Made by a program: the position numbers and the translations under genes. A DNA stretch of 46,915 nucleotides from Verrucomicrobiota bacterium (GTDB taxonomy: Bacteria; Verrucomicrobiota; Verrucomicrobiia; Opitutales; Opitutaceae): positions 1 to 46,915 of the forward strand of contig JAUWBF010000021.1 in assembly GCA_030601755.1 (NCBI GenBank). The letters are read 5' to 3'. Below the pieces are notes generated by a model. That model was not told the DNA's origin and searched no databases. It worked only from the letters and a program-made list of their open reading frames with translations. Below are positions 18,711 to 35,464 of this stretch, in pieces; the first letter of the stretch is position 1, and every line of letters starts with the position of its first letter.

Positions 18711-18716
18711 TTTTTT

Positions 18717-18808
18717 AACGCAAAGGCGCGAAGACGCAAAGGTCGCAAGGATCAGATGCCGGATCAAGCCGACGCCTTTGCGTCGCTGCCTCTTTGCGCC
18801 TTTGCGTT
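18717..18808. repeat. interspersed inverted repeat, family A copy 1
   Basis: Outer arms AACGCAAAGGCGC / GCGCCTTTGCGTT (18717-18729 with 18796-18808) match perfectly, with further GACGCAAAGG / CCTTTGCGTC pairing inside. It fills the space between two convergent genes and could act as a two-way terminator. Further copies lie at 21782 and 32084. Confidence 0.85.
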
Positions 18809-18821
18809 GAAATTCCGAACT

Positions 18822-21781: not shown

Positions 21782-21882
21782 TTTTAACGCAAAGACGCAA
21801 AGACGCGGAGGTCGCAAAGGCCTTCAGACAAATTTCGCAGAGCCTTTGCGTCTCTTTGCGCCTTCGCGCTTTTGCGTTAAAA
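21782..21882. repeat. interspersed inverted repeat, family A copy 2
   Basis: Outer arms TTTTAACGCAAA / TTTGCGTTAAAA (21782-21793 with 21871-21882) are perfect, with imperfect AGACGCAAAG-type pairing inside. It lies between the convergent thrB and gspF genes. Confidence 0.85.
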
Positions 21883-30990: not shown

Positions 30991-31073
30991 TTTAATCACG
31001 GAAACACGGAAGCACGGAAATCTGAGCAACACTATCCGTTCTGCTTCCGTGTTTCCGTGCTTCCGTGATTAAA
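30991..31073. repeat. interspersed inverted repeat, family B
   Basis: Arms of 28 bases (30991-31018 and 31046-31073) pair at 26 of 28 positions; each is built of CACGGAA/TTCCGTG units with an outer TTTAATCACGG. It ends two bases before the start codon of the deaminase gene, removing any room for a separate ribosome binding site. Confidence 0.87.
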
Positions 31074-31075
31074 AA

Positions 31076-32062
31076 ATGACCGACGCCGAGTTTATCCAGT
31101 CCCTTCCAAAGACCGAGACGCACCTGCACATCGAGGGCGCGCTGCCCTACGAGCTGCTGCGGACGCTGGATCCGGCGACGTATCCGGAAAATCCTTACTT
31201 TTACGAACCGGATTTTCGCTTCGAGTCGTTCCCCAAGTTCGACGAGGTCCTGCTCGGCCACGCTCTCCCGTGGTATGTTTCTGCCGAGCGCTATCACGAG
31301 GCGGCCAAGGCGATCTTCGCCCGCCACGTCGCGCAGAACGTCCGCTACGTGGAGACGTCCTTTCATCTGCCCGTCGCGATGTTCACCAACACGCCTGCCG
31401 CCGAACTCATCGCCGCCATCCGCAGCGCCGTGCCCGCCGGTTTGGAGGTGCGCATCTTCGCCGGCATGCTCCGCACCGACTACACCGGTCCGATGCAGGC
31501 GATCATCGACGACCTCGTGAACCTGGAGGACCTCGCCGGCGTCGACCTGCACGGCTATGAGCCCGTGCCGACCGAGGCTTGGACCGCGTCGGTGTGGCAA
31601 CGTCTGCGCGACGCCGGCAAGGTCACCAAGTGCCACGCCGGCGAGTTTGACGGGGCACGCCGCGTGCGCGAGGCCATCGAGCAGCTCGGGGTCACTCGTG
31701 TGCAGCACGGCATCCGCGCCATCGAGGATCCCGCCGTGGTGGCGCTCGCCGCCGAACGCGGCGTCACCTTCGACGTGTGCCCGATCAGCAACGTCCGCTT
31801 ACAGGTTGCGCCGTCGCTCTCCGCCCACCCCCTGCGCCGCCTGACCGAGGCCGGCGTGCGTTGCACCATCAGCACCGACGACCCGTTGGTCTTCGGCAAC
31901 ACGCTCAACGGCGAATACGCCGCGCTCGCCGCCGAGGCCGGCTACACCCGTGCCGAGCTCGCGCAACTGGCGCGCAACGGCTGGGCCGTCGCTTCGGTCG
32001 ACACCGCCACCCGCGACGTCGCGCTCGGGGAAATCGACCGACTGGCGCACGTTCACGTCTGA
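31076..32062 (+). CDS. adenosine/adenine deaminase-family enzyme
   Basis: A 328-residue member of the adenosine deaminase family. Metal and catalytic motifs are present: HLHIEG (H16, H18), CHAGE (catalytic Glu), VQHGIRA and STDDPLVFG (Asp pair). It may deaminate adenosine or adenine, or an unrelated purine or aminofutalosine; family members vary and the key specificity residues cannot be read with certainty. The ATG sits directly after a family B repeat with no Shine-Dalgarno sequence. A family A repeat follows its stop by about 20 bases. Confidence 0.85.
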
Positions 32063-32072
32063 CCAACGACGC

Positions 32073-33566
32073 ATGCGCTTTTCTTTAACGCAAAGACGCA
32101 AAGGCGCAAAGGTCGTGGTCTTTCGCCAGTGGAGTTCGCTGGCATTCTTTGCGCCTTTGCGACTTTGCGTTAAAAGAGCGACGTTATTGACCCTGTTCAC
32201 CTCGGCCATGTTCGTCGCGCAGGCCGAGCCGGTGCGCATCACCTACTGGGAAAAATGGGCGGGCTTCGAGGCCGAGGCCATGCGTGCGGTGGTCGACCAG
32301 TTCAACACCTCGCAGGACCGCATCGTCGTCGACTTCGTCTCGATCTCGCAGATCGACCGCAAGCTCATCGTCGCCACCGCCGGCGGCAATCCGCCCGACG
32401 TCGCCGGCATCTGGTTCGCGCAGATGTCGTCCTTCGCCGACCGCGCCGCGCTCACACCGCTCGACGACTTCATCCGGCGCGACACCGGCTCCGAGCCGAC
32501 CGCCTGGCTCGACGCCAACTACACGCCGGTGTTCGCCGACATGCAGCGCTACCGAGGCCGCGTCTTCGCGCTGATATCGGCGCCCAGCACCGTCGCGCTC
32601 TACTGGAACAAGACCGCCTTTCGCGAGGCCGGCCTCGATCCGGAAAAACCGCCGCGCACGCTGGCCGAGCTCGACGCGATGTCGCGCCAACTCACGCGCC
32701 GCGACCCGCGGACCGGCGCGTTGCTGGCGACCGGATTTTTGCCGCAGGAGCCCGGCTGGTTTTCCTACGCGTATCCGGCGTGGTTCGGCGGTCGGTTGGT
32801 CGACGACGACGGCCGCGTCGCGCTGGCCGGCGATCCGGCCAACCTCGCCGCCGCGCGTTGGGAACGCGGTTTTCCGCAAACCCTCGGCGTGGACGAACTG
32901 AAGGGGTTTGCCGGTGGCTTCGGTTCCTTCGCGTCGACGCAGCAGGCGTTTTTCACGGGCCGCGTGGCGATGGTTTTTCAAGGCGCGTGGTATGACCGCT
33001 TCATCGCGCGCTACGCGCCCGGGCTCGACTACGGCGTGGCCGCCTGGCCCGAGGCGGCCGGCCGCGAGCCGGGGCCGCCCGGGCAGGCGTTTACCGTGGC
33101 CGATGCCGACCTGTTGGTCATCCCGCGCGGCGCGGCCCATCCCGAGGCGGCCTGGGAATTCATCCGTTACGCGACGTCGGCCAACCTAGGCGCGACCAGT
33201 CGCGACGAATTGCGCGGCGTCGAGCTGCTTTGCTTCGGTCACCAAAAACCGTCGCCGCTCAAGCAGTGGAGCCCGTGGTTCGCGGCCAATCATCCCAATC
33301 CCAACATCGGTGTCTTTCGTCGCCTCTCCGAAAGCCCGCGGGCGTGGCACGTGCCGAAGATCGGTGTCTGGACCGAATACCTGCGCGAATACAATGCCGC
33401 CACCCAACGCCTGCGCCTGCTGCTCGCCGAACCCGACGAGGCGTGGGACTACGTGCAGCGCCGCGTCGGCGCGTCGCTCGAGCGCCACGAGCGCAGCGTC
33501 GAACGCCAGGCCGGCGCCGCCGTCGCGGAATCGTCCGCGGCCGAACCAACGGAGGGCGCGCCGTGA
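32073..33566 (+). CDS. sugar ABC transporter substrate-binding protein
   Basis: An extracellular solute-binding protein of family 1 (MalE-like). The mature part begins near AEPVRITYWEKWAGFEAEAM, with STVALYWNKTAF, FFTGRVAMVFQGAWY and AAHPEAAWEFIRYATS typical of sugar binders. From ATG 32073 it has 497 residues, and residues ~5-34 are encoded by a family A repeat. The true signal peptide is probably the later KRATLLTLFTSAMFVAQA. A non-ATG start after the repeat (for example TTG near 32186) cannot be excluded. It is coupled to the first permease gene. Confidence 0.83.
   Translation: MRFSLTQRRKGAKVVVFRQWSSLAFFAPLRLCVKRATLLTLFTSAMFVAQAEPVRITYWEKWAGFEAEAMRAVVDQFNTSQDRIVVDFVSISQIDRKLIVATAGGNPPDVAGIWFAQMSSFADRAALTPLDDFIRRDTGSEPTAWLDANYTPVFADMQRYRGRVFALISAPSTVALYWNKTAFREAGLDPEKPPRTLAELDAMSRQLTRRDPRTGALLATGFLPQEPGWFSYAYPAWFGGRLVDDDGRVALAGDPANLAAARWERGFPQTLGVDELKGFAGGFGSFASTQQAFFTGRVAMVFQGAWYDRFIARYAPGLDYGVAAWPEAAGREPGPPGQAFTVADADLLVIPRGAAHPEAAWEFIRYATSANLGATSRDELRGVELLCFGHQKPSPLKQWSPWFAANHPNPNIGVFRRLSESPRAWHVPKIGVWTEYLREYNAATQRLRLLLAEPDEAWDYVQRRVGASLERHERSVERQAGAAVAESSAAEPTEGAP
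32084..32174. repeat. interspersed inverted repeat, family A copy 3, within a coding frame
   Basis: Arms of 28 bases at its two ends pair at 27 of 28 positions (outer TTTAACGCAAAG / CTTTGCGTTAAA). It lies in the same frame as the substrate-binding protein and contains no stop in that frame, being translated as LTQRRKGAK...FAPLRLCVK. Confidence 0.87.
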
Positions 33567-34462
33567 CCGCCACCGATCTCAGGCGCCTGCGCGCCGGCCT
33601 CGCGTTCACCGCGCCGTGGATCGTGGGCTTCGCGGTCTTCACCCTCTACCCGGTGGTGGCGTCGTTGTATTTCAGTTTCTGCGACTACTCGATCTTGCAG
33701 CGCCCGCTGTGGATCGGCCTGGAGAACTACCGGACGCTGGCAGGCGACGACGTATTCTGGATTTCACTACGCAACACGCTCTGGTTCGCGGGCGCGGCCG
33801 TGCCGCTGGGCACGGTGACGTCGCTGGCGCTGGCGTTGCTGCTTAACCAGGACGTGCGTGGACGGGCGTTTTTCCGGACGCTGTTTTTCCTGCCGTCGAT
33901 CGTGCCGTTGGTGGCGTCGGCGATGTTGTGGCTGTGGATTTTCAACGGCTCGTCGGGCTTGCTCAACCAAGTGCTCGCGCCGGTTTTCGCGCTGTGGGGC
34001 GGCGCGCCGCCGGCGTGGCTGGGCGACCCGGCGTGGGCCAAGCCCGCGCTGGTGCTGATGAGCGCGTGGGGCGCGGGTCACAGCATGATCATCTACCTCG
34101 CCGGTCTGCAGAACGTGCCGCGCGAGCTCTACGAGTCGGCCGATCTCGACGGGGCGGGGGCGTGGTCGAAGTTCTGGCACATCACGCTGCCGGTCATCTC
34201 GCCGGTCATCTACTTCAACGTCGTCATGGGCATCATCGGCGCGATGCAGGTGTTCACGACCGCGTTCGTCATGACCGGCGGCACCGACGGCAACCCGGCG
34301 CGCTCGACGTTGTTCTACGCGCTGTATCTGTTCTCGAGCGCGTTCTACGACCTGCGCATGGGCTACGCCTCGGCGATGGCGTGGATATTGTTTTTGTTGA
34401 TCGCCACGCTCACGTGGATCGCGACGCGCGTGGCCGCGCGCAAGGTGCACTACAACGACTGA
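33563..34462 (+). CDS. sugar ABC transporter permease (MalF-like)
   Basis: A 299-residue binding-protein-dependent permease with six helices. FTAPWIVGFAVFTLYPVVAS is helix 1, NTLWFAGAAVPLGTVTSLALALLLN starts the permease domain, and the EAA loop is ELYESADLDGAGAWSKFWHITLP. The GTG start overlaps the binding-protein stop (GTGA) and has a good GGAGG 7 bases upstream, so the earlier in-frame starts are rejected. It works with the next permease. No ATPase gene is present, so a shared MsiK/UgpC-type ATPase elsewhere is expected. Confidence 0.9.
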   Translation: MTATDLRRLRAGLAFTAPWIVGFAVFTLYPVVASLYFSFCDYSILQRPLWIGLENYRTLAGDDVFWISLRNTLWFAGAAVPLGTVTSLALALLLNQDVRGRAFFRTLFFLPSIVPLVASAMLWLWIFNGSSGLLNQVLAPVFALWGGAPPAWLGDPAWAKPALVLMSAWGAGHSMIIYLAGLQNVPRELYESADLDGAGAWSKFWHITLPVISPVIYFNVVMGIIGAMQVFTTAFVMTGGTDGNPARSTLFYALYLFSSAFYDLRMGYASAMAWILFLLIATLTWIATRVAARKVHYND

Positions 34463-34465
34463 GCC

Positions 34466-35464
34466 ATGACGACGCGCGCTCCCATCGGTCAACGTGCCCT
34501 CACCTACCTCCTGCTTCTCGCCGGCGCGGTGCTGTTCGCGTTTCCGATGGTTTGGATGGTCTCGACCTCACTCAAGCCGCCGGAGCAGGCCGCAGCGGTG
34601 CCGCCGACGTTGTTGCCACGCGCACACTACGCCGAGATCGACGGACGCCGCGCCGAGGTGACGCTCGACCGCGAGCTGGCGGACCGGCCGGGCTGGTGGC
34701 AGGTGACGGCCAAGGACGGCGCCCGCGAGCGGCGCGAGTTGCCGCGCGAGCAGATCGACACGCGCATTGAGCCGCGCTGGGGCAACTACCCGGAGGCGCT
34801 GGACGAGATGGGCGCGGGACGCGTGGGCTTCGGCACGTTTTTGACCAACACCCTGATCGTCTGTGTGCTGGGCGTGGCGGGCACGGTGTTGTCCAACGCC
34901 ATGGTCGCCTACGGCTTCGCGCGGCTGAAGTGGCGGGGGCGCGACGCGTTTTTCGCGGTGACGCTCGCGACGATGATGGTGCCGGCGCCGGTGCTCATGG
35001 TGCCGCTCTACGGCGTCTTCAAGGAGCTGGGCTGGATCGGCACGCTGCTGCCGCTGTGGGTGCCGGCGTGGTTTGGCAGCGCGTTCAACATTTTCCTCAT
35101 GCGGCAGTTTTTCCGCACGCTGCCCGAGGAGATGAGCGAGGCCGCGCGCATCGACGGGGCGGGGGAGTGGACGATCTTCTGGCGGCTGGTGCTGCCGCTG
35201 AGCACGCCGGTCTTGGCGGTGGCGGCGCTGTTTCACTTCCTGTATGCGTGGAACGACTTTCTCGGACCGCTGCTCTACCTGACGCGCCAAGAAACCTTCA
35301 CGCTGGCCATCGCGTTGCAGAGCTACCAGACGCAGTCCGGCGGCGTGGAGTGGCCACTGCTGATGGCGGCGAGCGTGGTCACGGTGCTGCCGGTGATCGG
35401 GCTGTTCTTTTTGACGCAAAGGACCTTCATCCAAGGCATCGCGACGACCGGTTCAAAGGGGTAG
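34466..35464 (+). CDS. sugar ABC transporter permease (MalG-like) with an extra periplasmic segment
   Basis: A 332-residue MalG-type permease. Helix 1 is LLLLAGAVLFAFPMVWMVSTSLK; the permease domain runs from FLTNTLIVCVLGVAGT to the end, with the EAA loop EEMSEAARIDGAGEWTIFWRLVLP. Compared with the usual ~280 residues there is an insert of about 50 residues (~52-105; HYAEIDGRRAEVTLD...) between helix 1 and the WGNYPEAL motif, which should lie outside the membrane. It begins 3 bases after the previous stop and ends the transporter operon. Confidence 0.9.
   Translation: MTTRAPIGQRALTYLLLLAGAVLFAFPMVWMVSTSLKPPEQAAAVPPTLLPRAHYAEIDGRRAEVTLDRELADRPGWWQVTAKDGARERRELPREQIDTRIEPRWGNYPEALDEMGAGRVGFGTFLTNTLIVCVLGVAGTVLSNAMVAYGFARLKWRGRDAFFAVTLATMMVPAPVLMVPLYGVFKELGWIGTLLPLWVPAWFGSAFNIFLMRQFFRTLPEEMSEAARIDGAGEWTIFWRLVLPLSTPVLAVAALFHFLYAWNDFLGPLLYLTRQETFTLAIALQSYQTQSGGVEWPLLMAASVVTVLPVIGLFFLTQRTFIQGIATTGSKG

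Follow-up and report, generated by a model that had tools for sequence, protein, structure and literature searches.

A palindromic repeat whose open frame runs into the signal peptide of a sugar-binding protein, and its likely kinship with elements that carry a GxxExxY gene, in a Verrucomicrobiota bacterium

How does a cell cope with a hairpin repeat placed at the very start of the gene for an exported protein? The question is raised, in a concrete form, by a sugar-binding protein gene in the window, by which we mean the whole 46,915-nt stretch of DNA that was analysed (contig C24 of a 3.55 Mb assembly in 152 contigs). All the features of this locus lie on the forward strand. An adenosine-deaminase-like ORF (31076-32062, taken from the ORF list and named by eye from its translation) is followed, 10 nt past its stop, as in coupled genes, by an ATG (32073-32075) which is the favoured candidate start of the sugar-binding protein, and from which an open frame of 497 aa extends as far as a stop codon at 33564-33566. 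This frame crosses a palindrome formed by a left arm of tandem CGCNAAGN units (32087-32111), a loop which by eye is unlike the loops of other copies and includes GTG 32115 (32112-32146), and a right arm (32147-32171) with an in-frame TTG at 32157, from which MRLCVKRATLLTLFTSAMFVAQA would be read. The frame then enters the remainder of the signal peptide, KRATLLTLFTSAMFVAQA, with its AQA cleavage motif (32172-32225, assigned by eye), and the mature protein, which belongs to SBP_bac_1 (PF01547, E 1.6e-33; 32226-33566). Two permease-like ORFs (33563-34462 and 34466-35464, function assigned by eye) complete an ABC operon.

The first-pass annotation of this DNA had stated that the repeat is translated without a stop from ATG 32073, as LTQRRKGAK...FAPLRLCVK leading into KRATLLTLFTSAMFVAQA, and our reading of the ORF bears out the open frame. 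An open frame alone is weak evidence and unremarkable, since 74 of the 300 frames are open across the 50 two-armed copies of this repeat (family A) in the genome, with at least one open frame in 36 of these copies. When one of the two 25-nt arms of the present copy is reverse complemented it agrees with the other in 24 of 25 bases, which makes this copy, tied with the copy at L057, the most perfect of the 50. The palindrome folds with a predicted energy of -54.8 kcal/mol (z -8.1) and the predicted stem covers ATG 32073 once the flanks are folded too. Two other identities for the structure were rejected: a known Rfam RNA, given that a scan of the window returned no match at the gathering score, and an intrinsic terminator, given that the sequence reads A rather than T after the stem.

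It had also been claimed that a normal signal peptide would be left if the repeat were removed. This is correct when 90 nt are taken out in frame in silico, which yields MRFSRATLLTLFTSAMFVAQA, a short ordinary signal peptide, while the exact reading that had been given has to be corrected to MRFS-RATLLTLFTSAMFVAQA. By reading of the sequence, a 93-nt removal (32083-32175) would leave a stop. Since 90 nt keeps the frame and other junctions break it, the repeat may also have inserted shortly before a start codon which later disappeared. The comparison with relatives that had been proposed was carried out on the matches to the sugar-binding protein, which occur in 24 of 150 genomes of the family, this genome included (E 1e-30). 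The nearest relative has 60% identity, the set holds no second genome of the genus, and none of the relatives is close enough to reveal an empty site at this gene. Across 23 genomes of the family, 25 related loci were examined over the interval between 250 nt before the match and 60 nt inside it. None shows an arm of family A or a tandem of CRCNRAR units, in contrast to the locus in the window. Four of these loci (L029, L034, L035 and L036) are without the EKW anchor, so that no N-terminus was read for them, and were still examined for the repeat; the readable N-termini are ordinary basic or lipoprotein-like leaders, whose start-to-EKW distance varies between about 33 and 63 aa according to the start chosen. 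Whether the relatives start after the repeat is a question that does not apply, because they are without it. The adenosine-deaminase-like gene was not found beside the orthologues within the locus stretches examined.

Where, then, could translation begin? The in-frame ATG, GTG or TTG codons past the repeat are TTG 32187, ATG 32208 and GTG 32232, all within or beyond the signal peptide, and the first ATG after this copy (32208) lies inside it. Three candidate starts would yield a signal peptide that has AQA at its end, namely ATG 32073 (51 residues), GTG 32115 (37 residues) and TTG 32157 (23 residues), and for all three a basic n-region, an h-region and an AXA site are present by eye. The locus can be set beside the other genes of the same strand that start at most 150 nt past a copy, 38 in number with this one (50 copies, crude gene caller). 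With this gene excluded, an in-frame ATG falls within 60 nt after the copy in 31 of 37, the other six having a later ATG or a GTG or TTG. Only the present gene, among the 38, has its first post-copy ATG within a signal peptide (the other 37 being judged by eye); at L067 (position 4275) the first ATG is likewise within a conserved motif, yet a TTG after the repeat could serve there. We rejected the missing Shine-Dalgarno sequence as evidence on the choice of start: such sequences precede 24% of called starts versus 28% of internal ATGs (this genome; window and L147-L166), and their absence at ATG 32073 is uninformative in a genome without enrichment.

Given that there is no usable start past the repeat, and that the related loci are free of it, the repeat is probably coding, and would act either as a long n-region (from ATG 32073) or as the supplier of the start (TTG 32157). 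The earlier proposal that an insertion had lengthened the n-region or moved the start to a rare codon is thus supported in part, by these same two lines of evidence: both of its options stand, and insertion into a pre-existing frame is one possible course of events.

The best explanation, to which we give slightly more credence than doubt, is that a short copy with CRCNRAR arms, of a kind whose full form carries a GxxExxY gene, was captured at the start of the gene, the protein being made from ATG 32073 through the hairpin. The short copy would have inserted where the upstream gene meets the sugar-binding protein gene, and translation from ATG 32073 through the whole hairpin would be the most likely outcome, with the 30 repeat-coded residues forming a long basic n-region before an otherwise normal h-region and AQA site. 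As the start codon is itself covered by the predicted stem, ribosomes that finish translation 10 nt upstream may be needed for initiation. The start codon used, the export of the protein and the order of events are what we infer from the sequence. Against ATG 32073 stands the more ordinary signal peptide that TTG 32157 would give (23 versus 51 residues).

This TTG is the main rival, and one that we consider unlikely although well worth weighing. According to it, the repeat itself supplies the start in its right arm, the original start having been replaced and the rest of the repeat being 5' untranslated. Besides the ordinary length of its signal peptide, whose n-region has a net charge of +3, the crude caller picked TTG for 51 of 370 long genes in this genome, and for two relatives (L028 and L031), in which no in-frame ATG stands near the signal peptide, TTG may be the start. 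However, TTG 32157 lies deep within the predicted stem (-55 to -66 kcal/mol) and TTG is the least frequent of the three start codons in these calls. A start at ATG 32208, with the signal peptide lost or the gene decaying since the insertion, appears distinctly less probable. This ATG is the start picked by the crude gene caller and its position at +36 fits the usual distance between a copy and an ATG (at most 60 nt in 32 of the 38 genes, this one included), but the hydrophobic segment and AQA site upstream of it are intact and in frame, and the sugar-binding ORF and both permease ORFs are undamaged. Very improbable, in our view, is initiation from the loop codon GTG 32115, for which AAAGG of the left arm would be the ribosome-binding site; such a start has a 4-nt Shine-Dalgarno match upstream and a parallel in the GxxExxY element at L111, where the start codon comes just past the same kind of left arm, whereas enrichment of such matches is undetectable in this genome and the loop of the present copy holds no known gene. 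An assembly error at repeated sequence, which a single assembly of 152 contigs with about 100 similar repeats might invite, is the least credible of all, for a 99-base stretch here is unique at full identity and is not easily confused with other copies, the next full-length matches being about 75% identical.

The favoured reading, capture of a short copy with translation from ATG 32073, calls for a description of the repeat itself. Each arm is a tandem run of CRCNRAR units, and the two arms are inverted relative to each other. In family A the units take the form CGCNAAG, with the arm consensus TTTT-AACGCAAAG-N-CGC-N-AAG-N-CGC-N-AAG, in which positions one to nine hardly vary and any of the four bases can occur at N. 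Allowing at most two mismatches, the arm pattern has 100 and 111 matches in this genome, versus a single match for the reversed pattern, which indicates roughly 100 copies. Two further copies lie in the window, at 18713-18810 and 21783-21882. The survey covered the stretches around the matches listed, among which are about 100 of the 211 arm matches, and found at least 83 arm-bearing sites, 50 of them with both arms; this total takes in at least three three-mismatch matches that are probably chance, and two sites that are both arms of one GxxExxY element. Intergenic sites number 71 of the 83, and 12 touch a called gene, in surveyed sequence that is 88.6% coding (crude caller); the signal-peptide copy is itself counted among the 71, the caller having begun its gene at ATG 32208, after the repeat. 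Loops differ, by eye, between most copies, a point to set beside the MITEs of known transposons, which are expected to have a conserved interior and a target-site duplication. Among 120 genomes of the family, family A is present in 45, this one included, and it was not found in plasmid records.

A stem kept by compensatory change at the RNA level was rejected as an account of these palindromes. Arm identity is 0.831 within a copy versus 0.851 between copies, and the observed value was equalled or exceeded in 99.98% of 5000 shuffles; since there is no excess of likeness within copies, compensatory pairing is not seen and the perfection of the arms is no measure of age. Over the 50 copies the likeness within a copy even falls slightly short of that between copies, as though there were some avoidance of perfect palindromes. 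At L059 (3072-3689) three 139-nt copies stand in tandem with a spacing of about 240 nt, their loops being similar, unlike those of most copies, and at five other loci (L057, L064, L065, L068 and L097) a different palindrome, beginning GTAGCGCAGGCTTCCAGCCTGC, is nested, by eye, inside family A loops. Additionally, a family A arm at L104 (3777-3906) gives the last residues and the stop of an apparent CTP synthase, with the tail KASTQSRKGAKVAKKK, so that the repeat may have become coding here as well.

What does the full form of this palindrome class look like? It appears to hold, between its arms, a gene of the GxxExxY family (TIGR04256, PF13366, PDDEXK_3). At L111, family A arms bracket such a gene, one of five in the genome; all five lie between inverted repeats, which by eye belong to five different arm families, and in four of the five CRCNRAR arms are found on both sides. 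One of the five has an in-frame stop. For one GxxExxY protein, a search for a relative of solved structure found none.

At the level of the phylum, PF13366 is present in 69 of the 145 genomes searched, and the loci compared are the best match per genome for 30 of these 69. CRCNRAR arms are present on both sides in 20 of the 30 loci, on either side in 25 and on neither in five. The same words on the wrong strand were seen on the left in 4 and on the right in 3 of the 30 loci; in the distant flanks of GxxExxY loci both arms were found in 0 of 54 cases and either in 4 (three of the 30 loci being too short for this control), and around genes for the bacterial intervening-sequence protein (IVP) both arms were found at 0 of 29 loci and either at 2 (the IVP locus L113 of this genome being excluded). 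A test free of any arm word points the same way, with inverted repeats of at least 26 bits in the flanks of 23 of the 30 GxxExxY loci, versus 7 of 150 pairs made of mismatched flanks and 1 of 150 places drawn at random from this genome.

The association extends to the abundance of arms in the 120 genomes of the family, where GxxExxY is present in 102 and an arm pattern with a 9-nt period has matches in 112. The median number of matches is 20 in the 102 genomes with GxxExxY versus 2 in the 18 without it (p 3e-8, ignoring relatedness and completeness), and the density is 5.2 versus 0.4 per Mb, a difference to which the arms around the GxxExxY genes themselves contribute. Family A arms, in turn, occur in 44 of the 102 versus 1 of the 18. 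There are exceptions in both directions: three genomes with GxxExxY (G007, G080 and G083) have no match to the arm pattern, and two without it have 21 (G065) and 11 (G025). On these grounds the repeat is most likely the short form of a mobile element that carries GxxExxY, and the protein encoded by this gene may be what mobilises it.

Outside the phylum, relatives of GxxExxY were found in eight plasmid records, of which one has both CRCNRAR arms by pattern and two have either. By eye, arms are seen in the records of Bacteroides finegoldii and Sphingomonas parapaucimobilis; those of Bernardetia are similar, those of Treponema doubtful, and at the other four loci (L197, L199, L202 and L203) none were seen by eye. 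The Sphingomonas element lies between fabD and fabG and the Bacteroides element between radA and the next gene. The corresponding order without the element is found in Sphingomonas paeninsulae (fabD annotated, the fabG side known from a sequence match only) and in Parabacteroides distasonis, at 72-73% identity, while Phocaeicola massiliensis has other sequence at that place, with none of the searched arm words in it. These comparisons support the gain or loss of a unit, at an identity too low for base-exact junctions.

In-frame capture of a repeat is already precedented. Rickettsia palindromic elements (RPE; Ogata 2000, 2002) form in-frame fusions, and nearly half of those of R. conorii lie within ORFs, according to PMC10969869. 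As in those accounts, a palindrome of similar size lies here in an open frame that continues into a host protein and is probably translated. Family A differs from them in being intergenic at 71 of its 83 sites, in its unit-built arms and in loops that vary, by eye, between copies. The enterobacterial RU-2 repeat forms the N-terminus of an exported protein (Delihas 2007, PMC2759123), but it belongs to another repeat family and another host, and in the present case the repeat may separate the ATG from the h-region.

Another comparison is with REP sequences, RAYTs and TIR-flanked transposases, treated in PMC3733652, according to which GTAG repeats are abundant in O. terrae. REP or REPIN sequences with their RAYT (PMC3733652, PMC3116915) resemble the present system in having many short palindromes per genome that are tied to a gene placed between repeats. 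In contrast to their GTAG/CGTC tag and 20-40 bp unit, family A has ends of the form TTTTAACGC...GCGTTAAAA, carries no tag and has longer, unit-built arms. Y1_Tnp has three matches in the genome (on contigs C125, C72 and C22), and no family A arm was found around these genes (L105-L107), two of the three being near a contig end. As to GxxExxY, the gene adjoins a reverse transcriptase in PMC8934634, and papers matching its family names include PMC12085832 and PMC9756366. A description of GxxExxY (TIGR04256, PF13366, PDDEXK_3) as part of a palindromic mobile element was not found in the openly readable literature that was searched. The letters of the family A repeat were not found in literature text, and for the arm words of another palindrome family the matches listed were unrelated by title.

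Taken together, the signal-peptide case is, as read from the DNA, probably one of the rare instances in which a mobile palindrome was captured as coding sequence, for which there are precedents, and the association between the palindrome class and GxxExxY is the more valuable result. That arms of this class often lie around a little-studied gene of a nuclease family points to what may be a form of mobile DNA that has been overlooked. More broadly, we advance tentatively, with our reservations still a little heavier than our conviction, that CRCNRAR palindromes and GxxExxY constitute an undescribed mobile superfamily, in which the nuclease would recognise the arms and mobilise both the gene-bearing and the short copies, some of which become coding. 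Under this proposal, the superfamily would range over the phylum of the window and single plasmid records of Pseudomonadota and Bacteroidota. If it is true, short copies, reaching about 100 per genome, are now and then recruited for coding, in this instance within a signal peptide. More generally, a common palindrome class is linked to one gene family, GxxExxY, for whose role we found no description. Two questions thereby become testable, namely what spreads the repeats and what the GxxExxY protein does.

Two observations of a different kind can be added. Between two genes of the window (30992-31072) lies a palindrome of a second family, with arms TTAATCACGGAAACACGGAAGCACGG, whose arm words also bracket a GxxExxY gene elsewhere in the same genome (L109). 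The IVP genes (PF05635; L167-L195), rejected as partner of the CRCNRAR arm words (none of the 29 loci having both arms), have inverted-repeat flanks of their own, with at least 26 bits in 12 of 29 loci versus 2 of 100 mismatched pairs. By eye these flank repeats consist of other tandem short words, and one of the four IVP loci of this genome is so flanked. The IVP loci are perhaps a parallel class of element.
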